Below, one piece after another: positions 47,157 to 63,473 of a DNA stretch of 64,000 nt. The stretch's first letter is position 1; every line of letters starts with the position of its first letter. The position numbers and the translations under genes were made by a program. The DNA is taken from positions 868,001-932,000 of the forward strand of contig NZ_QEOP01000001.1 of NCBI RefSeq assembly GCF_003097495.1. Direction: 5' to 3'. The notes beneath the pieces were generated by a model. It did not search any database and was not told the origin of the DNA. It saw nothing but the letters and a program-made list of their open reading frames with translations. Source of the DNA: Amnibacterium flavum. Lineage in GTDB: Bacteria; Actinomycetota; Actinomycetes; Actinomycetales; Microbacteriaceae.

Positions 47157-49499
47157 ATGAAGTTCACCGACGGTTTCTGGCAGCTTCGCCCAGGAGTCGA
47201 CGCGCTCTACGCCCGCGAGATCTACGACGTTGACGTCGCGGGGCGCGAGATCGTCCTGACCGCACCGACGGTCCCGATCACCTCGCGCGGCGCGACGCTC
47301 AACCGTCCGACCTTCACGGTCACGCTGTGGTCGCCGTCGGTCGGCGTGATCGGCGTTCGGGCCGAGCACTTCCAGGGGCGCCCGCGCCCGATGGGCTTCG
47401 ACCTCGTCGGCGCGGCTCCGGACGGCGTCGGCACGGTCGAGACGCTCGAGGACGGCACCACCCGTCTCGTCTCAGGCGACCTCGTCGCCACGGTCCGCGA
47501 GAAGGGCCCGTGGGGCATCGAGTTCACCTCGAACGGCCGCGTCCTCACCGCGAGCGGTCTGAAATCACTCGGCTACATGACGCTGGCGCCCGACGCACAG
47601 GTCGACGGCGGGCCGGTCGGGAACGCCCGTGCCGCCACGAGTGCGCCGAGCTCGCGCACCTACATCCACGAGCAGCTCGACCTGAGCGTCGGCGAGACCA
47701 TCTACGGCCTCGGCGAACGCTTCGGCCCGGTCGTCAAGAACGGCCAGACCGTCGACATCTGGAACGCCGACGGCGGAACCTCCAGCGAGCAGGCCTACAA
47801 GAACGTCCCCTTCCACCTGTCGAGCCGCGGCTACGGCGTGCTCGTGAACGACGCGGGCGCCGTCAGCTACGAGGTCGGCTCCGAGGCCGTCGAGCGCGTC
47901 CAGTTCTCCGTCCCCGGCGAGAGCATCGAGTACTTCATCGTCGACGGGCCGACCCCGAAGGACGTGCTCACCCGCTACACCGAGCTCACCGGTCGGCCCG
48001 CCGAGGTGCCCGCCTGGTCGTTCGGGCTGTGGCTCACGACGAGCTTCACGACCGACTACGACGAGGCGACCGTCAACGAGTTCATCGACGGGATGATGGA
48101 GCGCGACCTGCCGCTCGGCGTCTTCCACTTCGACTGCTTCTGGATGCGCGAGTTCAACTGGTGCGACTTCGAGTGGGATCCCCGCGTCTTCCCGGATCCC
48201 GACGGCATGCTCGCGCGTCTGCACGAGCGCGACCTGCGGGTCTGCGTCTGGATCAATCCGTACATCGCCCAGCGCTCGCCGCTGTTCCGCGAGGGCGCGG
48301 ACGCCGGCTACCTGGTGAAGCGTCCCGACGGCTCGGTCTGGCAGTGGGACCTCTGGCAGGCGGGCATGGCTCTCGTCGACTTCACCAACCCCGAGGCGAC
48401 GGCCTGGTACCAGGGCAAACTGCGGGCGCTGCTCGATCAGGGCGTCGACTGCTTCAAGACCGACTTCGGCGAGCGAATCCCGCTCGAGGTCGACTACTTC
48501 GACGGCTCCGCCCCCGACCGCATGCACAACATGTACACGCAGCTGTACAACAAGGCCGTGTTCGACGTGCTCGAGGAGCAGCGCGGCAAGGGCGATGCCG
48601 TCCTGTTCGCGCGCTCGGCGACCGCCGGTGGGCAGCAGCTCCCTGTGCACTGGGGCGGCGACTCGACCTCGACCTACTCGTCGATGGCCGAGACGCTGCG
48701 CGGCGGACTCTCGCTCTCGCTCAGCGGCTTCGGGTTCTGGAGCCACGACATCGGCGGTTTTGAGGGGACGCCCGACGCGGGAGTGTTCAAGAGGTGGGTG
48801 GCGTTCGGTCTGCTCGGCAGCCACTCGCGTCTGCACGGCTCGAACTCCTACCGGGTGCCGTGGGTGTTCGACGACGGCAGTGAGGCCGAGGGGCAGAGCG
48901 CGGTGGAGGTCACCCGCAAGTTCCTGAAGCTCAAGCTCCAGCTGATGCCGTACCTCTACGCCGCGGGCCGCGAGGCGAGCGCGACCGGCATCCCCGTGAT
49001 GCGGCCGATGCTGCTCGAGTTCCCCGAGGACCAGACCGCGCGCCAGCTCGACCGCCAGTACATGCTCGGCGCCGACGTGCTCGTCGCGCCCGTCTTCGAC
49101 GCCGCGGGTGAGGTGGAGTTCTACCTGCCCGCAGGCATCTGGACCAACCACTGGACCGGTGAGCGCGTCGAGGGCGGCCGCTGGCTGCGCGAGACGCACG
49201 GGTTCGACTCCCTGCCCCTCTACATCCGCGGCGGGGCCGTACTGCCGTGGGGTGCGCGCACCGACAAGGCCGACTACGACTATCTCGACGGACTCGTGCT
49301 CGAACTGCACCCCGACGGGCGCGACGGATCTCGTACCCTCGAGGTGACGACGCCCGACGGACGTGTCGCGACGTTCGAGGTCGAGACGAGCGCATCCGGC
49401 GCCGTCGTCAGCTCGGATTCGCCGGCCGCATTCTCGGTCCGGCTCCCCGGCGGCGACCCGGTTGCCGCCTCATCTGGAAAGGCCGGCCTCGAATGGTGA
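47157..49499 (+). CDS. yicI: GH31 alpha-xylosidase
   Basis: A 780-residue cytosolic glycoside hydrolase of family 31. An N-terminal beta-sandwich (about 1-270) precedes the catalytic barrel: [20 protein letters not shown] (near 320-340) marks alpha-xylosidases, Asp436 in KTDFGE is the nucleophile and Asp502 in HWGGDSTS the acid/base. Length fits YicI (about 770). It releases xylose from isoprimeverose-type ends of xyloglucan fragments brought in by the upstream importer; xylose then enters the xylAB route encoded nearby. It overlaps the beta-glucosidase gene by seven bases. No signal peptide. Confidence 0.93.
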
Positions 49500-50920
49500 C
49501 GTCAGGTTCCCCCGACTACCGCGACGGCGGACTCGAGTTCGCCCCCGACTTCGTCATCGGCTCGGCGACCGCGTCGTACCAGATCGAGGGCGCCGCCTTC
49601 GAGGACGGGCGCGGGCCGTCGATCTGGGACACGTACTCCCACACTCCCGGCAACATCTGGAACGACGACAACGGCGACGTGGCCGACGACCACTACCACC
49701 GTGTCGATTCCGACCTCGACCTGATGGCCGACCTGGGTCTCGACTCGTACCGTTTCTCGATCGCGTGGCCGCGCATCCAGGCCACCGGTTCGGGTCCGGC
49801 GAACGAGAGGGGACTCTCGTTCTACTCGCGTCTCGTCGACGGGCTCCTCGAGCGGGGGATCCGACCCATCGCCACCCTGTACCACTGGGACCTCCCGCAG
49901 GCTCTCGAGGATCAGGGCGGCTGGACCGCTCGCGCCACCGCGGAGCGCTTCGCCGAGTACGCCGAGATCGCGGCTCGGGCGCTCGGGGACCGCGTGCACA
50001 CCTGGACGACTCTCAACGAGCCGTGGTGCTCGGCCTATCTCGGCTACGGCTCCGGCGCTCACGCCCCCGGCCGGACCGACGGAGCCGCGGCTCTCTCGGC
50101 GGTCCACCACCTCAACCTCGCGCACGGTCTCGCGGTGAGCGCCATCCGCTCCGCCGCCACGAACGACCCCGACCTGTCGGTCACGCTCAACTTCCACGTG
50201 ATCCGCGGCGACGACGAGACGACCCCCGAGGCGCGCCGTCGCATCGACGCGCTGGCGAACCGGGCGTTCACCGGCCCGATGCTGAAAGGCGAGTACCCGG
50301 CAGACCTGATCGAGGACACCGCGTCGGTCACCGACTGGTCGTTCCTCCGCGACGGCGACACGGAGCTCATCCACCAGCCGATCGACGTTCTCGGCGTCAA
50401 CTACTACTCGACCGTGACAGTCAAGATGTGGGACGGCGTCTCGCCGCGGCAGAACGCCGACGGGCACAAGGACGTGGGCGGATCGCCGTGGCCGGGCAGC
50501 CGCGATGTCGAGTTCCTGACCCAGCCGGGGCCGTACACGGAGATGGGCTGGAACATCGCCCCCGACGGACTCGAGGAGCTGCTGCTCGATCTGCACGAGC
50601 AGTTCCCCGATCAGCCGCTCATGATCACCGAGAACGGGGCCGCCTTCGCGGACGAGGTCGTCGACGGCGAGGTGCACGACGCCGACCGCGTCGACTACCT
50701 CAACCGGCACTTCACCGCGGCGCACCGGGCGATCGAGAAGGGCGTCGACCTGCGCGGGTACACCGTCTGGTCGCTGCTCGACAACTTCGAGTGGGGCTAC
50801 GGCTACTCGAAGCGGTTCGGCATCGTCCGCGTCGACTACGACACGCAGCTGCGCACCGTGAAGGACAGCGGCAAGTGGGTCGCCCGGACGATCCGGGATC
50901 GGCGCACTCCGTCGGTGTGA
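49493..50920 (+). CDS. GH1 beta-glucosidase
   Basis: A 475-residue family 1 enzyme. ATG at 49493 overlaps the previous gene; a GTG follows directly. The conserved start ([20 protein letters not shown]) and [20 protein letters not shown] are present; Glu176 in TTLNEPW is the acid/base and Glu380 in ITENGAA the nucleophile. It lacks a signal peptide and should split cellobiose-like or de-xylosylated glucan fragments in the cytosol, working after the alpha-xylosidase. Beta-galactoside or fucoside side activity is possible in this family. Confidence 0.94.
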
Positions 50921-51045: not shown

Positions 51046-52047
51046 ATGACGCGACCTATCACTCTGTTCACCGGCCAGTGGGCCGATCTGCCCTTCGAAG
51101 AGGTGGCCCGACTCGCCGGCGAGTGGGGATTCGACGGGCTGGAGATCGCCTGCTGGGGCGATCATCTCGACCCCAACCGCGGCGCAACCGACGATGATTA
51201 CATCGCGGATCGTCTCGAGATCCTCAAGCGCAACAACCTCGAGGTGTTCACGATCGCGAACCACCTCAAAGGACAGGCGGTGTGCGACGACCCGATCGAC
51301 GCCCGCCACCGCGACATCCTCCCCGACTCCGTGTGGGGCGACGGCGACCCCGACGGGGTCCGCGCCCGCGCTGCGGAGGAGATGAAGAACACCGCCCGCA
51401 CGGCGGCCCGACTCGGGGCGAAGACCGTGACCGGATTCACCGGATCATCGATCTGGAAGTACGTCGCGATGTTCCCGCCGGTCGCCGCCGAGCTCGTCGA
51501 GGCCGGCTACCGCGACTTCGCCGACCGCTGGAACCCCATCCTCGACGTGTTCGATGAGGTGGGCGTCCGCTTCGCGAGCGAGACGCACCCGAGCGAGATC
51601 CACTACGACTACTGGACGACCAAGGCGGCGCTCGACGCCATCGAGCACCGCGAGGCGTTCGGCATCAACTGGGACCCCAGTCACTTCGTCTGGCAGGACC
51701 TCGACTCGGTCGGGTACCTCTGGGACTTCCAGGACCGCATCTACCACGTGCACGCCAAGGACACGAAGAAGCGCCTGAACGGCCGCAACGGGCGTCTCGG
51801 CTCGCACCTGGCCTGGGCGGATCCCCGCCGCGGCTGGGACTTCATCTCGGTCGGCCACGGCGACGTGCCGTGGGAGGACGCGTTCCGCATGCTGAACGCC
51901 ATCGGCTACGAGGGTCCTCTCTCGGTCGAATGGGAGGACGCCGGCATGGATCGTCTCATCGGAGCCCCCGAGGCACGCGCCTTCGTGGAGAAGTTCAGCT
52001 TCGACGCACCAGGGAGCGCCTTCGACGCCGCGTTCAGCACGCGCTGA
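51046..52047 (+). CDS. Sugar phosphate isomerase/epimerase family TIM-barrel protein
   Basis: A 333-residue AP-endonuclease-2-type barrel. ATG at 51046 with AGAAGGA six bases before it. Predicted metal ligands are Glu in [14 protein letters not shown], Asp/His in [11 protein letters not shown], His in [10 protein letters not shown] and Glu in [11 protein letters not shown]. This subgroup is common in sugar operons, where members isomerise or epimerise keto- or inositol-type sugars. It is separated from the GH1 gene by 125 bp and ends in its own terminator, so it may be independently expressed. Substrate unknown. Confidence 0.82.
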
Positions 52048-55269: not shown

Positions 55270-56274
55270 TCAGGCCGGCGCCGCGGCCTCGAACAGGTCG
55301 CGGTGTCCCCGGGTCATCGCGAAAGCGGAGTGCGTGTCCGCCTCGAGCCAGTCGTGGCCGCCCCACTCGCTGCAGACGAAGCCCGAGTAGCCGGTGGCCT
55401 CCAGCGCGGATCGGATCTCGCGTGTCGGTCCGCTGACCCGATCATCGTCGTCGACGAGGTCCCAGTACTTGAGATGAACGGACGTCGTATCGGCGAGGAA
55501 GTCCTCCCATTCCGCCACCTGGGAGCAGCCGAACCTCCGGAACGGCATCTCGAGTCGGCGGAGAGCGGGCGGGGCGAGTCGCAGTGGTTCGGCGAGGGCC
55601 TGCAGTCGGGTCCAAGCATCGGGGCGGCGGCCCCGCCAGAGGTCGTCGGCGGCGGACAGAAGCTCCTCGGTGGCGCCCGACGCGATCAGGCTGTCGCGCC
55701 AGGTGACCGGGAAGGCGGCCATCACCAGACTCGAGTCGAAGACGAACCCGATGGACTCGGTGTCGTATCGCGCGCGCAACTCGCGGTGGCGGTCGATCGC
55801 GGGGGAGTCGGGCCGGGCGCCGCCCTGCACCTCCTCCAGGAGCTTCACGTCGAGACGCTCGAGGTCGGGGATGAGCGAGGAGATAAAGTCGGCGGACAGC
55901 GCCCCCAGCCCGACGCGGGCACCGAAGAAACCGACCGTCGCCGCCGCCTCGAGCTGACGGAGGACGAACATCCGGAGCTCCTCCTGATCGCGCCGGCCGC
56001 GGCTGTCGATCCGGATGTCGGCGTAGATCCCGAGCATGGTGGGAGTCGCACCCACGCGCTGGATCGCGTCTCGCGTGCGTGCTGCCTCGTCCTCATCGAT
56101 AGCGGGGAAGCTCGCGAAATGCTGGGCGGCATCCACTTCGATCGCGGTCGCGAGCCCGCTCGAGACGATCTCCTGGATCAGCTCATCGGGCGATGCCGCG
56201 CCCTCCATCAGTTCGTTCGTGAACGAGTAGAGGGTCGTCGCCCAGGTGGTATCGGTGGTGTCGGTCGTCGTCAT
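55270..56274 (-). CDS. TIM-barrel protein resembling the C-glycoside deglycosidase alpha subunit (second copy)
   Basis: A 334-residue isomerase/epimerase-fold barrel. The predicted metal ligands fall in the same order as in the protein at 59948: Glu147/148 in VKLLEEVQGG, Asp180 in GFVFDSSLV, His267 in SVHLKYWDL and Glu303 in VCSEWGGHD. It is more distant than that copy and has an Arg/Asp-rich middle part. It is divergent from the beta-like gene at 56340, with 65 bp between them; the ATG follows AGAAGGA. Pairing with that beta-like protein in one complex is an inference; a simple sugar isomerase is the alternative. Confidence 0.68.
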   Translation of the reverse strand: MTTTDTTDTTWATTLYSFTNELMEGAASPDELIQEIVSSGLATAIEVDAAQHFASFPAIDEDEAARTRDAIQRVGATPTMLGIYADIRIDSRGRRDQEELRMFVLRQLEAAATVGFFGARVGLGALSADFISSLIPDLERLDVKLLEEVQGGARPDSPAIDRHRELRARYDTESIGFVFDSSLVMAAFPVTWRDSLIASGATEELLSAADDLWRGRRPDAWTRLQALAEPLRLAPPALRRLEMPFRRFGCSQVAEWEDFLADTTSVHLKYWDLVDDDDRVSGPTREIRSALEATGYSGFVCSEWGGHDWLEADTHSAFAMTRGHRDLFEAAAPA

Positions 56275-56304
56275 CGTCGTCCTTCTCGCTCGTTGTCGTG
56301 GTCA

Positions 56305-56333
56305 TTGACTTCATTCCGTCGGGTGCATAGGTT
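56305..56333 (+). promoter_or_regulatory. Leaderless promoter of the beta-like gene at 56340
   Basis: TTGACT (56305-56310) and TAGGTT (56328-56333) have a 17-base spacer. The -10 ends six bases before the ATG at 56340, so transcription should start at or next to the A of the start codon. Confidence 0.7.
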
Positions 56334-56339
56334 CGCCGC

Positions 56340-56708
56340 ATGAGTACACAGACGTACGTCCTCCGGCCGGACAGCCTTCGCCGTCGCGAAGGCGGGGCCA
56401 CCCTCCTGGTGGGTCTTCCCTGGTACCGGGCCCTGCCGTGGGCCGGAGTCGCAGCCGTGCAGGTGACTTTCGACGGCCGTCCCGTCGACGTCCTGTCGAT
56501 CGACGGAGGGCCCGTCGCCGCGACGCAGCGCCAGGACTACTGGTCCCTCCAGCACCGGGCCGAGCTTCACCTGGGGGAGGAAGCCCCGAGCGGTCGGACG
56601 ACCGTGGCTCTCCATGTTGACCTCCGAATCCCGGGACCGACGAAGCCCGACGGATCCCCGATGGACTACCGCTTCGAGACCCAGCGCGAACTCGTCGCGG
56701 ATATTTGA
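56340..56708 (+). CDS. Small DUF6379-like protein, possible second C-glycoside deglycosidase beta subunit
   Basis: A 122-residue beta-rich protein. The stretch PWYRALPWAGVAAVQVTFDG (about 31-50), a Trp in the following acidic segment (QRQDYWSLQHRAELHLG) and a closing TVALHVDLRIP strand line up with the beta subunit at 60960 (YYRGLGLSMVDFDLEVDGQP, DDRWGFGEAATL, HYHQRLRIS). It is divergent from the TIM-barrel gene at 55270 and precedes the importer genes. Read as the small partner of that barrel protein. Resemblance is by motif only. Confidence 0.62.
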   Translation: MSTQTYVLRPDSLRRREGGATLLVGLPWYRALPWAGVAAVQVTFDGRPVDVLSIDGGPVAATQRQDYWSLQHRAELHLGEEAPSGRTTVALHVDLRIPGPTKPDGSPMDYRFETQRELVADI

Positions 56709-56720
56709 AGTTCTGACACT

Positions 56721-56765
56721 TTCGGAACCCGGGCGACTGCGTCTATTGTGGCACTCGAGAGTACC
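56721..56765 (+). promoter_or_regulatory. Promoter and palindromic operator of the importer-deglycosidase operon
   Basis: TTCGGA (56721-56726) and TATTGT (56744-56749) have a 17-base spacer. GGCACTCGAGAGTACC (56750-56765), a palindrome of the form GGNACTC-NN-GAGTNCC, covers the predicted start point. No regulator gene is adjacent. Confidence 0.55.
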
Positions 56766-56803
56766 TACCGCAGTAACTCCCACTCAATCACAGAAGGTCA
56801 ATG

Positions 56804-58108
56804 ATGCCCATTCAGTCGAAACAACGCCGTCGGCTCCTGCTCGCCGTCGGTGTCACCGCAGTCGCCGGGCTCGCGCTCGGCGCGTGCTCGTCTCCCGCTC
56901 CTGAGGCCTCGAGCGATCCCGACGCACCCGTCTCACTCCGCCTCTCCGTCGAAGCGGGCGCCGTCGACGCGCCCGTGGCCGTCCTCGCCGCCAAGTACTC
57001 CGAGGAGCATCCGAACATCACCTTCGAGGTCGAGGCGGTTCCGAACGAGCAGTACGGCGAGGTTCTCCGCACTCAGCTCCAGGGCGGCAACGCGCCCGAC
57101 GTGTTCTACGTCACGGGCGGAAACGGCAACGCGCACTCGGCTCTCCCGCTCGCCGAGGCGGGCTACCTGGTCGACCTCTCCGGCACCGTCGCCGAGGAAC
57201 TCTTCACCGACTCGACGCGGTCGCTGAGTGAGTACGACGGCAAGATCTGGACGCAGCCCTACGACTTCGTGCCGATCGTGAACAACTACAACGTCACGGT
57301 GGCCGAGGAGCTCGGCATCGAGCTTCCGTTCACCTCCGTCGACGATGTCCTCGACGCCTGCGCTGTCGCCACCGACGCCGGCAAGACCCTCCTCCGGCTC
57401 GCCGGTGCGGCGGTGCCGAACGCGGGCCTCACCACGCTGCAGATGGCGGCGACGCGCGTCTACGCCGACGACCCGGAGTGGAACCAGAAGCGCCTCGACG
57501 GCGACGTGACCTTCGCCGACACCAAGGGCTGGACCGAGTCCCTCGAGCTCATCCTCGAGCTGCGCGACGCGGGCTGCTTCCAGGAGGGCGTCGAGGCCGG
57601 CGTCATCGCCGACAACGTGCCGGCCATCGCCGCAGGAACCTCGCTCGGTGGATTCGCGCCCGGCGGCCAGGTCGGCGACCTCCGTCGGGTGAACCCCGAC
57701 AACGAGTACCTCTCGACCGCCTTCCCGGGCGACAAGGGCGAGAAGTGGATGTTCGCATCGCCGACCAACATGCTCGCCCTCAACGCATCGTCGGATGAGG
57801 CGAAGCAGAAGGCCGGCATGGACTTCCTGGCCTGGCTCGCCGAACCGGAGAACGCGGATGAGCTCGCCGCAACCAGCGGAAACCTCTCCATCCGTGCCGG
57901 TTCGGGTGCGGCTCTGCCGGACCAGTACCAGTACATCTCCGACTACTTCACCGACGAGAGCTACCAGCCCCTCGCCAACCTGCAGTGGCCGAGCCCCGAG
58001 GTGTACAACACGCTCGGGACCGGAGTCCAGGGGCTGCTGACCGGTCAGACGACCGTCGACGCCGTCCTCAAGGCCATGGACGCCGCTTGGGATTCAGCCG
58101 CAGGCTGA
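56804..58108 (+). CDS. ABC transporter solute-binding lipoprotein of the C-glycoside locus
   Basis: A 434-residue family 1 binding protein. Of two adjacent ATGs (56801, 56804) the second has the better spacing from AGAAGG. The lipobox is LGAC (Cys28 counted from this start). LRTQLQGGNAPDVFYVTGGN and IWTQPYDFVPIVNNYNV are family-typical, and LAAGTSLGGFAPGG-like loop sequence (here AAGTSLGGFAPGGQVG) lies near residue 280. It leads a unit of two permeases and the alpha/beta deglycosidase-like pair, so its cargo is probably a glycoside or an unusual sugar. No ATPase nearby. Confidence 0.85.
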   Translation: MPIQSKQRRRLLLAVGVTAVAGLALGACSSPAPEASSDPDAPVSLRLSVEAGAVDAPVAVLAAKYSEEHPNITFEVEAVPNEQYGEVLRTQLQGGNAPDVFYVTGGNGNAHSALPLAEAGYLVDLSGTVAEELFTDSTRSLSEYDGKIWTQPYDFVPIVNNYNVTVAEELGIELPFTSVDDVLDACAVATDAGKTLLRLAGAAVPNAGLTTLQMAATRVYADDPEWNQKRLDGDVTFADTKGWTESLELILELRDAGCFQEGVEAGVIADNVPAIAAGTSLGGFAPGGQVGDLRRVNPDNEYLSTAFPGDKGEKWMFASPTNMLALNASSDEAKQKAGMDFLAWLAEPENADELAATSGNLSIRAGSGAALPDQYQYISDYFTDESYQPLANLQWPSPEVYNTLGTGVQGLLTGQTTVDAVLKAMDAAWDSAAG

Positions 58109-58118
58109 TCCCGCCCAC

Positions 58119-58150
58119 CGGCGCCGGCGGGGGTCACCCCGCCGGCGCCG
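58119..58150 (+). terminator. Intercistronic hairpin after the solute-binding protein gene
   Basis: A perfect 14-bp stem (58119-58132 with 58137-58150) with a GTCA loop starts 10 bases after the stop codon and 30 bases before the permease start. Confidence 0.78.
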
Positions 58151-58179
58151 TTCCACTCCAACTGAGGAAGATACGCAAC

Positions 58180-59112
58180 GTGGCAATCTCTCCGGCCCCC
58201 CAAGTGACCGCTCGACGCAGAGGCAGAGCCTCTGGTCCCGACTACGGCAGCAGACTCTTCGCCTCGTGGTGGTGGGCGATCCCCGCACTCGTGGCCTCGC
58301 TGCTGATCCACTACGTGGCCGTGGCAGCGGGTGGAACCTTCGCTTTCACCAACTGGAAGGGCATCGGCTCATTCGAGTGGGTCGGCCTCGACAACTTCGT
58401 GAAGATCTTCTCGGGTGATCTCGGCCGGACGGCCATCGTCAACACGCTCATCCTGGCCTTCGGCTTCGTCGTGGGCACCAACCTGCTGGGGGTCCTCCTG
58501 GCGCTGGGGCTCAACCGCGGGGTCAAGACGCGTTACTTCCTCCGCGTCGTGATCTTCATGCCCACGGTCCTCAGCCCGCTCGCCGTGTCCTACATCTGGC
58601 GGTTCATCTACCAGCCGGAGGGGCCGCTCAACTCGTTCCTCGGCAGCGTCGGTCTCGAGTCGTGGCAGAGGACCTGGCTCGCCGATCCGACCACCTCGCT
58701 CTGGACGATCCTCATCGTCATGGTCTGGCAGAGCACCGGCCTCGTCATGGTCATCTACCTCGCCGGCCTGGCGGGCGTGCCGCAGGAACTCGAGGAGGCC
58801 GCAGCCATCGACGGGGCCAGTGTCTTCCAGCGCTTCCGGCTCGTCGTCTTCCCACTGATCCGACCCTCGTTCGTCATCGCGTCGACGCTCATGCTCATCC
58901 AGGGCCTTCGGGTCTTCGACCAGGTCATGGCGCTCACCGGAGGAGGCCCGTTCAACGCCACCGAGACCCTCGCCACGCAGGTCTACAAGCAGACCTTCGC
59001 CTACGGCCAGTTCGGCTACGGCGCGGCCCTGTCGCTTGTCCTGACCGTCCTCATCATCGTCATCTCGCTGGCGCAGATGGCACTCACGAGCAGCCGAGAG
59101 GGGAAGAGCTGA
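58180..59112 (+). CDS. ABC transporter permease (MalF class) of the C-glycoside locus
   Basis: A 310-residue permease. The GTG at 58180 with GAGGAAG upstream is used; codons before it cover the hairpin. Six helices are visible; the EAA loop reads EAAAIDGASVFQRFRLVVFP near residue 210, followed by QGLRVFDQVMALTGGGP, a standard MalF-type segment. It overlaps the next permease by one base. Confidence 0.87.
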   Translation: MAISPAPQVTARRRGRASGPDYGSRLFASWWWAIPALVASLLIHYVAVAAGGTFAFTNWKGIGSFEWVGLDNFVKIFSGDLGRTAIVNTLILAFGFVVGTNLLGVLLALGLNRGVKTRYFLRVVIFMPTVLSPLAVSYIWRFIYQPEGPLNSFLGSVGLESWQRTWLADPTTSLWTILIVMVWQSTGLVMVIYLAGLAGVPQELEEAAAIDGASVFQRFRLVVFPLIRPSFVIASTLMLIQGLRVFDQVMALTGGGPFNATETLATQVYKQTFAYGQFGYGAALSLVLTVLIIVISLAQMALTSSREGKS

Positions 59113-59951
59113 TGTTCAACAGATATACGCCGGCCACGTTCATCCGCGAGGTCCTCCTCATCCTCGCGACCATCGTGGTGCTGTTCCCCTTCTACCTGCT
59201 CGTCGTCATGGCGCTGAAGGGCACCAAGGAGGCCACGGTCTCGTCTCCGGTCGCACTGCCGACCGCGCCGACCCTCGAGAATTTCGCCACCGTGCTGTCG
59301 GGCGAGGGCAGCCGCAACGTGCTCATGGGCCTGCTGAACAGCACGATCATCACGGTCGGCAGCGTGGTGATGCTCATCATCCTCGGCTCGGTGGCCGCTT
59401 ATGCGATCGCCCGGCGGCCCGGTCGGCTCGGCGGCGCCGCGTATGTCAGCTTCGTGGTCGGCATCATCCTGCCCTTCCAGCTCGCGATCATCCCGACCTA
59501 CGTCGCACTCCGGGTCCTCGGCCTGCTCGGCACCCACGTCGGCATGATCCTGCTCTACACGGGCCTGCTCATGCCGCTGACCGTGTTCCTCTACACCGGG
59601 TTCGCCCGGGCGCTGCCGAGGGACTACGAGGAAGCCGCCGCCATCGACGGCGCGAGCAAGATCCGCATCTTCGTGAAGATCGTGTTCCCGCTGCTGGCGC
59701 CCGCCACCGGAACCGTCGCCATCCTGACCGGTCTCATCGTCTGGAACGACTTCTTCAACGCGCTCATCTTCCTGAGCGGATCGAGGTCGACGACCCTGCC
59801 GGTCATGGTCTACAGCTTCGTCGGAGAGAACGTCACGGCGTGGAACCTCGTGTTCACCGTCGTCATCATCTCGATGATCCCCATCCTCGCGTTCTACCTG
59901 TTCGCGCAGAAGAAGTTCATCCAAGGATTCGCTGGAGGTATGAAGGGTTGA
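59112..59951 (+). CDS. ABC transporter permease (MalG class) of the C-glycoside locus
   Basis: A 279-residue permease from the ATG at 59112 (overlapping the previous TGA). Six helices; EAA loop EAAAIDGASKIRIFVKIVFP near residue 180; end FIQGFAGGMKG. It overlaps the TTG start of the alpha-subunit gene by four bases, tying transport and catabolism into one translational unit. Confidence 0.87.
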   Translation: MFNRYTPATFIREVLLILATIVVLFPFYLLVVMALKGTKEATVSSPVALPTAPTLENFATVLSGEGSRNVLMGLLNSTIITVGSVVMLIILGSVAAYAIARRPGRLGGAAYVSFVVGIILPFQLAIIPTYVALRVLGLLGTHVGMILLYTGLLMPLTVFLYTGFARALPRDYEEAAAIDGASKIRIFVKIVFPLLAPATGTVAILTGLIVWNDFFNALIFLSGSRSTTLPVMVYSFVGENVTAWNLVFTVVIISMIPILAFYLFAQKKFIQGFAGGMKG

Positions 59952-60937
59952 CCCACAACATCAAGAGAGGCGTGAGCCTCTACAGCTACCAGGAAGAGGT
60001 CTTCCTCGGGAAGCTCGATCTCGAGTCGGCCATCGCCGCGTCCGCTGCATTCGGGGCGAACGGCATCGAGATCATCCCCGAGCAGTCCTTCGACAACTTC
60101 CCGAACCTGACCGACGAGCAGGTGGCGAACTGGTTCGCTCTGCATGAGAAGTACGGGACCGTTCCCACGGCCTACGACATGTTCATCGACCTCAAGCGTC
60201 GCGCCGACCGGCTGATGACGCTGGAGGAGGGGCTCGAGTCCATCCGTCGCGACATCGACCTCGCCGACCGACTGGGTACCAAGGTCATCCGCGTCATCAT
60301 CAACACGCCCCCCGAGGTCTACGAGCACGCTGCGCCCTACGCGGAGGAGAAGGGGATCAAGCTCGCGCTCGAGATCCACGCTCCCATGAGGTACGACCAC
60401 CGCTGGGTCCAGCAGTTCCTCGAGATCATCCACCGCGTCGACAGCCCCTCGCTCGGACTGCTGCCCGACATGGGCACGTTCGTGCGGATCTTCCCGCGCG
60501 TCGTGTCCGAGCGGGCGCTCCGCGACGGCGGCACGCCGAAGCTGGTCGACCACATCGTCAAGGTCTACAACGACCACCCCACCGACCTGCAGACCCTGAG
60601 CCGCGAGATCGCGTGGCGCGGAGGCAATGCCGTCGACATGGGCCTCGCCGCCGCGGCGACGGGCTACAACTGGGTCGAGCCGTCGACGCTCATCCCGCAC
60701 ATGCCCTACCTGTTCCACATCCAGGCCAAGTTCTACGAGATGGTCGACGACACCCACGAGTACTCGATCCCGTACGACGAGATCATCCCCCTGCTGATTG
60801 ACCACGGCTACAACGGCTACCTCTCGAGCGAGTACGAGGGCAACCGTCACATCCAGGACGTCGAGCCGGTCGACAGCGTCGAGCAGGTGCGCCGCCAGCA
60901 CGCCATGTTCGTGAAGCTGCTCGGCGAAGCCGACTGA
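59948..60937 (+). CDS. TIM-barrel protein, probable C-glycoside deglycosidase alpha subunit
   Basis: A 329-residue barrel starting with TTG at 59948 (GGAGGTATGAAGGG upstream). Predicted metal ligands are Glu142 (LALEIHAP), Asp174 (GLLPDMGTF), His257 (LFHIQAKFYEM) and Glu295 (YLSSEYEGNRH). The start, RGVSLYSYQEEVFLGKLDLE, and the whole layout match alpha subunits of C-glycoside deglycosidases (the CarBC, DfgAB, DgpBC group), manganese-dependent lyases that split 3-keto C-glycosides into aglycone and anhydro-keto sugar. The beta-subunit gene follows after 22 bases. Other isomerase/epimerase activities remain possible. Confidence 0.78.
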   Translation: MTHNIKRGVSLYSYQEEVFLGKLDLESAIAASAAFGANGIEIIPEQSFDNFPNLTDEQVANWFALHEKYGTVPTAYDMFIDLKRRADRLMTLEEGLESIRRDIDLADRLGTKVIRVIINTPPEVYEHAAPYAEEKGIKLALEIHAPMRYDHRWVQQFLEIIHRVDSPSLGLLPDMGTFVRIFPRVVSERALRDGGTPKLVDHIVKVYNDHPTDLQTLSREIAWRGGNAVDMGLAAAATGYNWVEPSTLIPHMPYLFHIQAKFYEMVDDTHEYSIPYDEIIPLLIDHGYNGYLSSEYEGNRHIQDVEPVDSVEQVRRQHAMFVKLLGEAD

Positions 60938-60959
60938 CCCCGACCACGAGGAGATCACC

Positions 60960-61349
60960 ATGTTCGACCGTTACATCATCGTGGAAGACACGCTCCGCAA
61001 CGTCGAGGGCGACGACGCCGTCACCGGTTACGCCGTCGACACCCGCATCGGCTACTACCGCGGCCTCGGCCTGTCGATGGTCGACTTCGACCTCGAGGTC
61101 GACGGCCAGCCGATCCCGAAGGATCGGATCACCTTCCGCGTCCACGACACCGACTACCCGGCGACCTCCCTCGGAGACGTCTACGACGACAGGTGGGGCT
61201 TCGGAGAAGCAGCGACGCTGATCGTCGACCAGCCGGGCGGGCTCGCCTCGGGGGAGCACGAGGTGCACTACCACCAGCGGCTCCGCATCTCGTACCTGCC
61301 CGTGCCCAGTCAGAACGACGACACCAAGGTCATGTCGGTCGCTGGGTGA
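60960..61349 (+). CDS. DUF6379 protein, probable C-glycoside deglycosidase beta subunit
   Basis: A 129-residue beta-sandwich protein: FDRYIIVEDTLRNVEGDD at the start, RIGYYRGLGLSMVDFDLEVD (about 36-55), DRWGFGEAATLIVDQPGGLA and HYHQRLRISYLPVPSQNDD near the end. This pattern is the small subunit found with the TIM-barrel alpha subunit in C-glycoside deglycosidases, where it completes the active site and the assembly. ATG at 60960 with GAGGAG seven bases upstream. Its position directly after the alpha gene supports one complex. Confidence 0.8.
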   Translation: MFDRYIIVEDTLRNVEGDDAVTGYAVDTRIGYYRGLGLSMVDFDLEVDGQPIPKDRITFRVHDTDYPATSLGDVYDDRWGFGEAATLIVDQPGGLASGEHEVHYHQRLRISYLPVPSQNDDTKVMSVAG

Positions 61350-61362
61350 CGAACCACGCTGA

Positions 61363-61398
61363 GACGGATCCGGCCGGCAGCTCTCCGCCGGATCCGTC
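61363..61398 (+). terminator. 12-bp hairpin ending at the MFS start codon
   Basis: GACGGATCCGGC (61363-61374) and GCCGGATCCGTC (61387-61398) pair perfectly around a 12-base loop. The 3' arm ends on the base before the ATG at 61399. It could be a terminator for the deglycosidase operon or a fold that limits MFS translation, since no other ribosome site is present. Confidence 0.6.
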
Positions 61399-62700
61399 AT
61401 GAGCACGGCGCTCGCGGCCGACAGCGAGCGCGGCACCTTCCGGGCGCTGCGCCACCGGGACTTCCGGCTCTGGATCATCGGTCTGCTGCTCTCGAGCATC
61501 GGTACCTGGATGCAGATCACCGCGCAGGACTGGACCGTTCTCACGATCCTCACCGACGAGGACGCGAGCTCCCTCGCCCTGGTGATCGCCCTGCAGACCG
61601 TGCCGCAGCTCCTGCTCCTTCCCGTCGCGGGCTATGTCACCGACCGGTTCTCGCGCCGCCGGGTGCTCGCCGTCACCCAGGTCTGGATGGCCTGCGCGGC
61701 GGTCGCGCTCGGGGTGCTCGTACTCACCGGCGTCGCCCAGTACTGGCACGTCTGCCTGATGGCCGCCACCCTCGGAATCGCCCAGGCGTTCGATGCGCCG
61801 GCACGCCAGACCTTCGTGGTCGACCTCCTCCCGCCGAGCGGACTCAGCAACGGGATCGCGCTGGGCGGCGCCACCTTCAACCTGGCCCGCCTCATCGGCC
61901 CCGCCATCGCCGGCGTGCTGATCGGCCAGGTCGGTCCCGGCTGGATCTTCCTCGCCAACGGCGTCTCGTTCTCGGCGATGCTGATCGCCTTGTCGCTGAT
62001 GCGGCTCGAATCGGCCCAGCCCCGGCCGAGACCCGAATCGGGCCTGAAGTCGATGCTCAGCGGGATCTCTTACGTCGTGCATCACCAGGACATCCGAATC
62101 CTCGTACTCCTGGTATTCCTCGTCCTCGGCTGCGTCGGGGCGGCGATGAACCTCCTCGTGATCTCGACGGCGACCATGGTCTTCGATGTGGGCGCCGAGG
62201 CGTTCGGTCTGCTCACGTCGTTCATGGCCGTTGGCTCCGTCATCGGGGCTCTCTTCGTCGCCGGGCGACGCGAGCCGAAACTGAAGTTCCTGCTCGGGAG
62301 CATCTCCCTGATCGGCGTCTCGCTATGGGTGGCGTCCGCGATGCCGACGTTCGTCGCCTTCGCCTGCGTCATGCCCGTGCTGGGGTTCGGGCTCATCGCC
62401 TCTCTCGCCACCTGCAACGCCGCCGTCCAGGTTCGAACCGATCCCGCGATCCGCGGACGGGTGATGGGCGTCTACATCGCCGCATGGATGGCCGGATCAC
62501 CGGTCGGCGCACTGGTCTTCGGCGCGATCGTCGACGGCGCGGGTGCGCGGGCGGCGCTCGCCGCAGCCGGGGGAGTCACGCTGGCTGCCGCGGCGGGAGC
62601 TGCGGTGCTCTTCGGGCTTCGGCGCACCGGTCGCCCCGGGGCGGACGCGTCGACGGATCCGTCCACGTCGGCTCTCGATCCCCGGGAGGAACGAGCGTGA
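61399..62700 (+). CDS. MFS transporter (EntS/MFS_3-like)
   Basis: A 433-residue, 12-helix transporter. FRALRHRDFRLWIIGLLLSS at the start, DRFSRRRVLAVTQVWMACAA (motif A region) and DAPARQTFVVDLLPPSGLSN are hallmarks of the EntS-like exporters. The tail (about 405-433) is polar. It follows the deglycosidase beta gene after 49 bp and a hairpin. Export of an aglycone or keto sugar is conceivable, but these proteins are found in many contexts. Confidence 0.85.
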   Translation: MSTALAADSERGTFRALRHRDFRLWIIGLLLSSIGTWMQITAQDWTVLTILTDEDASSLALVIALQTVPQLLLLPVAGYVTDRFSRRRVLAVTQVWMACAAVALGVLVLTGVAQYWHVCLMAATLGIAQAFDAPARQTFVVDLLPPSGLSNGIALGGATFNLARLIGPAIAGVLIGQVGPGWIFLANGVSFSAMLIALSLMRLESAQPRPRPESGLKSMLSGISYVVHHQDIRILVLLVFLVLGCVGAAMNLLVISTATMVFDVGAEAFGLLTSFMAVGSVIGALFVAGRREPKLKFLLGSISLIGVSLWVASAMPTFVAFACVMPVLGFGLIASLATCNAAVQVRTDPAIRGRVMGVYIAAWMAGSPVGALVFGAIVDGAGARAALAAAGGVTLAAAAGAAVLFGLRRTGRPGADASTDPSTSALDPREERA

Positions 62701-62708
62701 TGCGACGG

Positions 62709-63449
62709 TCAGCCGCGGCGGGCCCTCGCGATGGCGTCCCGAGCCTCCGGCGAACGGAACAGGGCGAGCGACTTCGCGACCAGCGCCGCGGCGTCGCGAT
62801 CGAGCGCGGTGATGGCTTCGACGTTGAGAATGGCCTTCGATTCGCGGAGGCCCTGAGGGTCGGCCCGCAGCAGGGAGTCGGCGATCGCCTGCACGACGGA
62901 GTCGAGCTCCGCCCGCGGGGCCGTATGCGTGACCAGGCCGAGTCTCGCCGCCTCGTCCGCGGTGATGGACTCGCCGGTCAGGAACAGGCGCGCGGCATCT
63001 CGCGAAGCGAGTCGGCGGAGGACGGTCGCCGACACGACCACCGGGGCGAGGCCCAGCCGCGCCTCGGTGAAGGCGAAGTCCACCTCGTCGGCGGCGACCA
63101 CGAAGTCGGCAGCGCCCAGGATGCCCAGGCCACCGGCGCGGGCCGCCCCGTGAACCCGTGCGATCACGGGCACCGGCGAGTCGAGGATGTCGCGCAGCAG
63201 TCCGACCAGAAGCTCCAGCGCGAGCCGCAGGCGCTCGGGGTCCTGCTCCTTCAGGTCGAGCCCCGCGCAGAACGCCGGCCCCTCTGCGGCGATCACGACG
63301 ACCCGGGCATTTCGACGCGCCTCGGCCAGGCCCTCCCTGATCCCCTCGACCAGCTCGGGGGTCAGCGCGTTCCTGTTGTGCGGACTGGTCAGTGTGATCG
63401 TCAGGATTTCCTGCGATTGGACCTGCGCGACGGAGGCCGTATATTCCAT
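62709..63449 (-). CDS. Enoyl-CoA hydratase/isomerase family protein
   Basis: A 246-residue crotonase-fold enzyme. The ATG at 63449 with AAGGTGG five bases upstream is chosen; a GTG at 63458 would overlap that site. The oxyanion-hole segments are AEGPAFCAGLDLKE and HGAARAGGLGILGAADFVVA, and EARLGLAPVVVSATVLRRL follows where the usual second Glu would lie. It is divergent from the amidohydrolase gene. That setting suggests hydration or lyase chemistry on an aromatic acyl-CoA, such as a hydroxycinnamoyl-CoA, but the substrate is not shown by sequence. Confidence 0.85.
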   Translation of the reverse strand: MEYTASVAQVQSQEILTITLTSPHNRNALTPELVEGIREGLAEARRNARVVVIAAEGPAFCAGLDLKEQDPERLRLALELLVGLLRDILDSPVPVIARVHGAARAGGLGILGAADFVVAADEVDFAFTEARLGLAPVVVSATVLRRLASRDAARLFLTGESITADEAARLGLVTHTAPRAELDSVVQAIADSLLRADPQGLRESKAILNVEAITALDRDAAALVAKSLALFRSPEARDAIARARRG

Positions 63450-63451
63450 AG

Positions 63452-63473
63452 TAACCACCTTAGTAGTTAGTAT
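63452..63473. promoter_or_regulatory. Palindrome and leaderless promoter between the divergent aromatic genes
   Basis: TAACCACCTTAGTAGTTA (63452-63469) has the form TAACYAC-N4-GTRGTTA and covers the space between the two genes. TAGTAT (63468-63473) ends seven bases before the amidohydrolase ATG. A MarR- or TetR-type repressor site is a reasonable reading. Confidence 0.55.

Follow-up and report, generated by a model that had tools for sequence, protein, structure and literature searches.

Can a gene pair that retains the fold, the partner subunit and the metal site of a C-glycoside deglycosidase (CGD) still be regarded as a deglycosidase when the residues that carry out the catalysis are gone? 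This question is raised by a locus of Amnibacterium flavum, contained in a stretch of 64,000 nucleotides (the window, C1:868001-932000 of the 3.57 Mb genome; positions follow window numbering unless prefixed with C1). Two alpha/beta gene pairs of CGD type, alpha1/beta1 (pair 1) and alpha2/beta2 (pair 2), lie there around the genes of an importer. This arrangement had been described in an earlier note on the same DNA, and genes, coordinates, Pfam, PDB and fold matches agree with it; a check of the open reading frames recovered every gene named in that note at the right coordinates. The locus is a known kind of system, in which pair 2 is the new part. Tested keto-glycoside beta-eliminases of this kind depend on one histidine, which a whole sister clade, alpha2 included, has given up while keeping the metal ligands. 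This group, which carries Gln and Gly in place of the catalytic His and its helper Glu, is referred to here as the Q clade. With a probability of roughly 0.4, the locus serves to import and cleave C-glycosides and holds a His-less companion complex, most likely an isomerase that acts between 2-keto and 3-keto C-glycosides. Either a missing step of C-glycoside breakdown is represented here, or keto-glycoside elimination chemistry runs without its base.

The likeness of alpha2 and beta2 to CGDs lies far beyond chance. The best PDB sequence match of alpha2 is 7DNM_A, the alpha subunit of AgCGD2 (117 bits, and 182 bits with a clade profile). Its structure, predicted like that of beta2 as a single chain, contains the helices expected of the lid (mean predicted local distance difference test score, pLDDT, 93.6). 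CGD alpha chains and fused CGDs account for the best 16 PDB fold matches of this model, with a template modelling score of 0.87 against AgCGD2, and the structural neighbours that follow the CGDs include ketose 3-epimerases. The partner beta2 is too divergent for a Pfam match; it matches the D. aerius CGD beta subunit with an E-value of 7e-4, and of 38 proteins scanned from its alignment, 31 match PF19906, the family of CGD beta subunits, at E up to 0.01. The best 17 PDB matches of the beta2 model (mean pLDDT 92.5) are likewise all CGD beta or fused CGD chains, AgCGD2 being the best. The two genes, which encode CGD alpha and beta folds, are adjacent and divergent, 65 nt apart. All five metal ligands are kept in alpha2 (E148, D180, H267, K269 and E303, corresponding to Glu147, Asp179, His269, Lys271 and Glu305 of AgCGD2), while Q150 replaces the catalytic His (AgCGD2 H149) and G305 replaces the helper Glu (AgCGD2 E307), a loss that had not been seen in the earlier note. 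Because these two residues are gone, pair 2 is not to be filed as a CGD, and a CGD-type annotation alone is no proof of deglycosidase activity. The earlier suggestion that the second pair may have another substrate stands insofar as the pair is set apart as a conserved clade; the label of a second deglycosidase is unjustified without a general base.

The replacement is shared by the entire clade. Gln and Gly, together with all five metal ligands, are present in 80 of 80 rows of the clade alignment (78 genes without repeats, the N. aerilata gene being present three times), His and Glu are present in 96 of 96 other alpha rows, and no mixed form occurs among the 176 alpha rows read. These represent 176 of 199 rows, the other 23 being aligned over fewer than 240 residues or not matched again. 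The rows comprise barrel genes from 80 loci in named genomes and six from two Naasia-group genomes, and the canonical rows are mostly neighbours of Q genes and not an independent sample. The scan of named genomes relied on the peptide patterns [VFY]H[LV]K[FYW]WDL and EWGGH[ED]W, taking the best 80 of 89 relatives; these patterns bias the sample towards the Gly and towards the His and Lys ligands, but do not select for the Gln. When relatives of alpha2 were instead collected by whole-protein similarity with no residue filter (E up to 1e-40), they were found in 18 of 398 genomes of the window's family, and Gln and Gly were present in 18 of 18, with one protein aligned per genome and the window included.

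A 75-row tree places its 28 clade members in a single group (support 100/100), which all 200 bootstrap trees recover. Within an alignment of 45 rows, Arg247, Trp271 and Trp309 are fixed throughout, as are the ligands E148 and E303, and an acid occupies position 308 in 44 rows. Arg247 aligns with Met249 of AgCGD2, which forms part of the cavity (PMC8563793). Because further residues are fixed, the site looks rewired rather than decaying. Decay of pair 2 into pseudogenes was considered and is ruled out by the invariant clade pattern together with the ratios of nonsynonymous to synonymous substitution (dN/dS) against N. aerilata. The ratios, obtained by the Nei-Gojobori method with Jukes-Cantor correction for six genes, are 0.215 for alpha2, 0.336 for beta2, 0.089 for alpha1, 0.280 for beta1, 0.198 for the binding protein and 0.115 for permease 1. 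The window alpha2 branches with N. aerilata and two Microbacterium strains on a branch of its own (support 100/99). Pair 2 very probably belongs to a companion complex that is distinct in its catalysis. In N. aerilata, another alpha gene of Q type (C1:322860-323614; L022/L027) is spread over two reading frames, as though disrupted or wrongly read.

The clade was found only in genomes that also contain canonical deglycosidases. Among the 398 family genomes, scored with profile A2 for the Q clade and profile A4 for canonical CGD alphas (both at E up to 1e-60, with at most five candidates per genome), the Q clade occurs in 21 and canonical alphas in 24, and all 21 lie within the 24; both sets cover the same 12 of 85 genera. 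Such nesting would arise by chance with a probability of about 10^-31 if the genomes were independent, but they are related and do not represent independent events. Only four of 384 class-level genomes gave matches at E up to 1e-50, and true Q members are limited to G000 and G262, both of the window's family; the matches in G673 and G683 were rejected as Q members, being canonical by their residues. The named-genome scan shows Q members in Micrococcaceae and Kribbellaceae, and plasmid records yielded 13 weak matches with 23-30% identity. Q loci of actinobacterial type also occur on contigs assigned to Stenotrophomonas maltophilia P13 and Planococcus sp. APC 4015 (L120, L143), where contamination is the likely cause.

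Q genes also occur in three species where the chemistry of these systems was worked out: Arthrobacter globiformis, Microbacterium trichothecenolyticum (DSM 8608) and Pseudarthrobacter siccitolerans (4J27) each have a Q pair as the third pair of their CGD cluster. In A. globiformis NBRC 12137, the Q pair lies about 3 kb from AgCGD2, which was identified by an exact fragment match. Two CGD pairs are listed near the P. siccitolerans oxidase by Taborda et al. (PMC10646112), and the passages of that article covered here make no mention of a third. No paper naming a His-less CGD pair was found in the literature covered, which consisted of openly accessible main texts or passages from them.

The beta partner is nearly constant as well. 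In 75 of 77 loci the Q alpha domain has a beta domain no more than 200 nt away, on the same strand in 55 and divergently, as in the window, in 20; the exceptions are L077, where the nearest beta found is 3.4 kb away, and L120, which is cut at a contig end. Across the 65 Q loci with full 8-kb flanks, the neighbours include a ROK-type gene (59 loci), a Gfo/Idh/MocA gene (49), a barrel like the hydratase AtHYD (48), an AgCGD2-like alpha (45), the other canonical alpha (39) and a GMC oxidase (32). On the window branch, the three relatives likewise have a divergent beta beside the Q gene; next come genes for a binding protein and a permease and an alpha of EYEGN type resembling alpha1. The two Microbacterium genomes of this branch hold another Q gene elsewhere (L125, L126). 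The order in N. aerilata matches that of the window genome within about 15 kb: two oxidase-like genes (recognised by eye from their first residues), exporter, beta1, alpha1, permease 1, binding protein, beta2 and the divergent alpha2. Other genes were noticed as well. A 264-aa protein (L113:4257-5051) has no Pfam match at E up to 1e-5, and its P. siccitolerans relative was matched near the Q pair in 38 of the 65 fully flanked loci. L017 and L021 contain one-frame beta+alpha CGDs resembling the 435-residue M. testaceum CGD chain (8QRZ), which represent another CGD of these genera.

Pair 1, a CGD-clade alpha adjoining a CGDB beta, is CGD-like and a putative deglycosidase. The best PDB match of alpha1 is 8QVC_A, the D. 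aerius C-glucosyl deglycosidase (332 bits), and that of beta1 is the same enzyme (8QVC/8UMC, 93 bits); beta1 scores 123.9 bits against Pfam PF19906 'CGDB' (C-glycoside deglycosidase beta subunit), for which the cut-off is 27.6. As the earlier note would lead one to expect, neither barrel of the locus has its best match in a sugar isomerase outside the CGD group, by sequence and, for alpha2, also by fold. The catalytic His and the helper Glu are kept in alpha1, and Gln stands at the position of AgCGD2 His269 (FHIQAKFYEM versus FHVHAKFYEM in 8QVC), a metal ligand according to PMC8563793. The other four ligands are retained, so that the set of two Glu, Asp, His and Lys is incomplete. The statement that both barrels keep a Glu-Asp-His-Glu order is therefore correct for alpha2 and incorrect for alpha1, where the His used was probably the one two residues before the ligand position. 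The N. aerilata orthologue, 92% identical, carries the same Gln with the other four ligands kept, whereas this position is His in the relatives from two Microbacterium strains (L075, L076) and in alpha1', a canonical subunit encoded elsewhere in the window genome. Decay is an unlikely cause of the change, because a dN/dS of 0.09 indicates strong purifying selection; the His two residues upstream would lie on the same side of a beta strand and might stand in as a ligand.

In the proposed pathway, the binding protein and the two permeases would import the glycoside, C-glycoside 3-oxidases would make the 3-keto sugar, and alpha1/beta1, together with the canonical pairs at C1:949428-952224, would break the glycosidic C-C bond through metal-assisted beta-elimination. 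The AtHYD-like barrel at 51 kb would hydrate the released 2-hydroxy-3-keto-glucal, and a Gfo/Idh/MocA enzyme would reduce 3-keto-glucose. We infer these reactions in this organism, as well as the isomerase role of pair 2, from the observed gene content, homology, residue pattern, clade and co-occurrence. Ketose 3-epimerases, which have the same fold, use two metal-bound glutamates as an acid/base pair that moves protons next to a carbonyl. With its metal ligands, lid and beta subunit, pair 2 probably still binds an aglycone-bearing sugar, and its metal-bound glutamates may shuffle protons on the keto sugar in the manner of these epimerases, the His that abstracts the C2 proton during elimination being absent. 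A complex that holds a keto-C-glycoside, polarises the carbonyl and moves a proton, and is unable to expel the aglycone, would isomerise its substrate: it would turn a spontaneously formed 2-keto C-glycoside back to the 3-keto form that CGDs can cleave, or 2-epimerise it.

Published schemes assign to the His both the removal of the C2 proton and assistance to the leaving aglycone (PMC10628242). Mutation of this residue left 1.8% of the activity in MiCGD and 10.4% in PuCGD, and mutation of the helper Glu left 1.9% and 49.8%, respectively (Mori et al., PMC8563793); the matching His mutant of AtOGE was devoid of activity (Bitter et al., PMC10628242). Published work also describes a drift of 3-keto C-glycosides to 2-keto forms, which was complete for nothofagin in the test described, and reports that PuCGE does not use 2-keto-nothofagin. 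An isomerase would explain why the clade is tied to genomes with CGDs, why the beta subunit and the lid persist, and why a separate hydratase is present. The exact reaction, drawn by analogy with the epimerases, is offered only tentatively. It is likewise a speculative proposal that pair 2 stands for an undescribed CGD-derived alpha/beta complex of soil actinobacterial pathways, in which, after loss of the elimination base, the metal-bound Glu pair acts on keto-C-glycosides as an isomerase or epimerase and so rescues the 2-keto form, which CGDs cannot cleave. As part of the same reading, the Q complex may, though this is doubtful, have been recruited in the window organism beside a transporter operon, along with a deglycosidase of altered metal site.

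Several observations weigh against an isomerase. In three genomes (G063, G080 and G193), canonical CGD alphas are present and the Q clade is absent, and no other PuCGD-like product was found in Microbacterium sp. 5-2b by Mori et al. (PMC8563793); for both reasons the companion complex is not indispensable. 2-Keto-puerarin seems to return fast without an enzyme. Within 8 kb, the ROK gene is lacking in 6 and a hydratase-like gene in 17 of the 65 flanked Q loci. The window member adjoins an importer and alpha1/beta1 rather than the usual cluster, and its substrate may differ. The altered metal ligand of alpha1 makes it less certain that pair 1 is an ordinary lyase. The isomerase role is, in addition, one of several readings that the same sequence pattern would accommodate.

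It is possible, though doubtful, that pair 2 is still a keto-glycoside beta-eliminase for another substrate class, such as another sugar or an O-linked or acidic aglycone, with the adjacent glutamates or the acid at 308 serving as the base and the invariant Arg247 holding the aglycone. The fold, lid, beta partner and metal ligands are those of CGDs; also in its favour are the fixed Arg at the cavity-lining position of AgCGD2 Met249, the new conserved acid and the importer beside the window pair. However, those C- and O-glycoside eliminases that have been tested require the His, which is gone, with the helper Glu, in all 80 rows, and a private substrate alone leaves the co-occurrence with canonical CGDs in 21 of 21 genomes unexplained. 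A non-catalytic paralogue, acting as a binding, sensing or assembly partner for CGDs or for the ROK-type gene product, would be consistent with the loss of both acid/base residues in every row and with the ROK gene flanking 59 of 65 loci; it is nevertheless unlikely, as all 80 rows retain the five metal ligands and other positions of the active site are fixed too. Action on the free sugar product, either hydration of 2-hydroxy-3-keto-glucal or a later keto-sugar step, would suit a constant companion of CGDs whatever their aglycone. This is improbable: the AtHYD homologues in the window and at 48 of 65 Q loci make the hydration step look filled, which lowered a hydratase role for pair 2 among the candidates, and a lid and a beta subunit would be needless for a free sugar. 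That both pairs are ordinary CGDs differing in aglycone preference, as their homology and the two A. globiformis CGDs of differing preference (PMC8563793) might suggest, is very improbable given the absence of the catalytic residues from the whole alpha2 clade and of the metal-ligand His from alpha1.

The isomerase reading places pair 2 within a pathway whose remaining parts are distributed over the window and its right flank (Table 1). The start codon of alpha1 is a TTG overlapping the stop of permease 2, and the 22-nt gap between alpha1 and beta1 contains a GAGGAG motif. The earlier note saw no 3-oxidase in the window and expected one to its right or elsewhere, and two GMC genes were indeed located just beyond the right edge, the best three solved relatives of both being 8QVE (presumably the D. 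aerius oxidase), 7QF8 and 7DVE (338-437 bits). A 3-oxidase is thus present in the genome by homology; published work identifies 7QF8 as the oxidase of P. siccitolerans and 7DVE as the C-glycoside 3-oxidase MtCarA. Two further PF19906 genes occur in the genome, at C1:950430 and C1:950870, and the Gfo/Idh/MocA gene is a candidate for the final reduction. Each step in the scheme of Bitter et al. (PMC10628242), in which AtHYD is the 2-hydroxy-3-keto-glucal hydratase, has a homologue in this genome, from oxidation and elimination to hydration and reduction. A CGD-type locus with its own importer genes is accordingly supported at the level of gene content, and a flavone C-glucoside is a plausible substrate.

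Table 1. Genes of the C-glycoside locus and related genes of the same genome (window numbering, or contig numbering where marked C1)
Feature	Position	Strand	Description
AtHYD homologue	51046..52047	+	TIM barrel; 131 bits to 8RO4, 527 bits to 2ZDS
alpha2	55270..56274	-	CGD-alpha-fold barrel of the Gln/Gly ('Q') clade
beta2	56340..56708	+	CGD-beta-fold partner gene, divergent from alpha2
Extracellular solute-binding protein	56801..58108	+	SBP_bac_8 / SBP_bac_1
ABC permease 1	~58180..59112	+	BPD_transp_1; GTG start inferred
ABC permease 2	59112..59951	+	BPD_transp_1; overlaps permease 1
alpha1	59948..60937	+	CGD alpha subunit, nearest to D. aerius CGD
beta1	60960..61349	+	CGD beta subunit, PF19906
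MFS_3-type exporter gene	61399..62700	+	Downstream; place in module uncertain
Two GMC oxidoreductase genes	C1:934859-936385, 936390-937994		C-glycoside-3-oxidase homologues, 2.9-6.0 kb right of window
Canonical pairs	C1:949428-952224		alpha1' 949428-950423, beta1' 950427-950819, beta2' 950816-951223, alpha2' to 952224
Gfo/Idh/MocA gene	C1:952221-953243		Directly after alpha2'

Additional genes were observed around this pathway. GH31 and GH1 glycoside hydrolase genes lie at 47157-50920 beside the AtHYD-like barrel, with which they perhaps form a wider glycoside-catabolic island. From 62709-63458 on to C1:944020, near the oxidases, enoyl-CoA hydratase, amidohydrolase_2, short-chain dehydrogenase/reductase, AMP-binding ligase and thiolase genes are present, which could degrade an aglycone. 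Two more tandem xylose-isomerase-like barrel genes occur near the two oxidases (L005:7855-9791). The N. aerilata contig C1 shows the same matches near both of its ends (about 2-31 kb and 3349-3378 kb) at nearly constant spacing, perhaps an unclosed overlap of a circular chromosome.

Among known systems, AgCGD2 of A. globiformis (AgCarB2-C2, PDB 7DNM/7DNN) has the metal ligands and the four-helix lid in common with alpha2, but it carries His149, Glu307 and Met249 where the Q clade has Gln, Gly and Arg. The D. aerius C-glucosyl deglycosidase (8QVC/8UMC), the closest relative of pair 1, keeps the metal-ligand His, where the window alpha1 and its N. aerilata orthologue both have Gln. PuCGD/DgpBC, EuCGD/DfgAB and MiCGD/CarBC (Mori et al. 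2021, PMC8563793) share the alpha/beta architecture and the metal site with the Q pairs, and PuCGD and AgCGD2 share the lid; PuCGD, EuCGD and MiCGD, however, use the conserved His that the Q clade is without. The AtOGE/AtHYD pathway of Agrobacterium follows the same logic of oxidation, elimination, hydration and reduction, although AtOGE has no beta subunit or lid and is unrelated in sequence to CGDs; it, too, needs its His (Bitter et al. 2023, PMC10628242).

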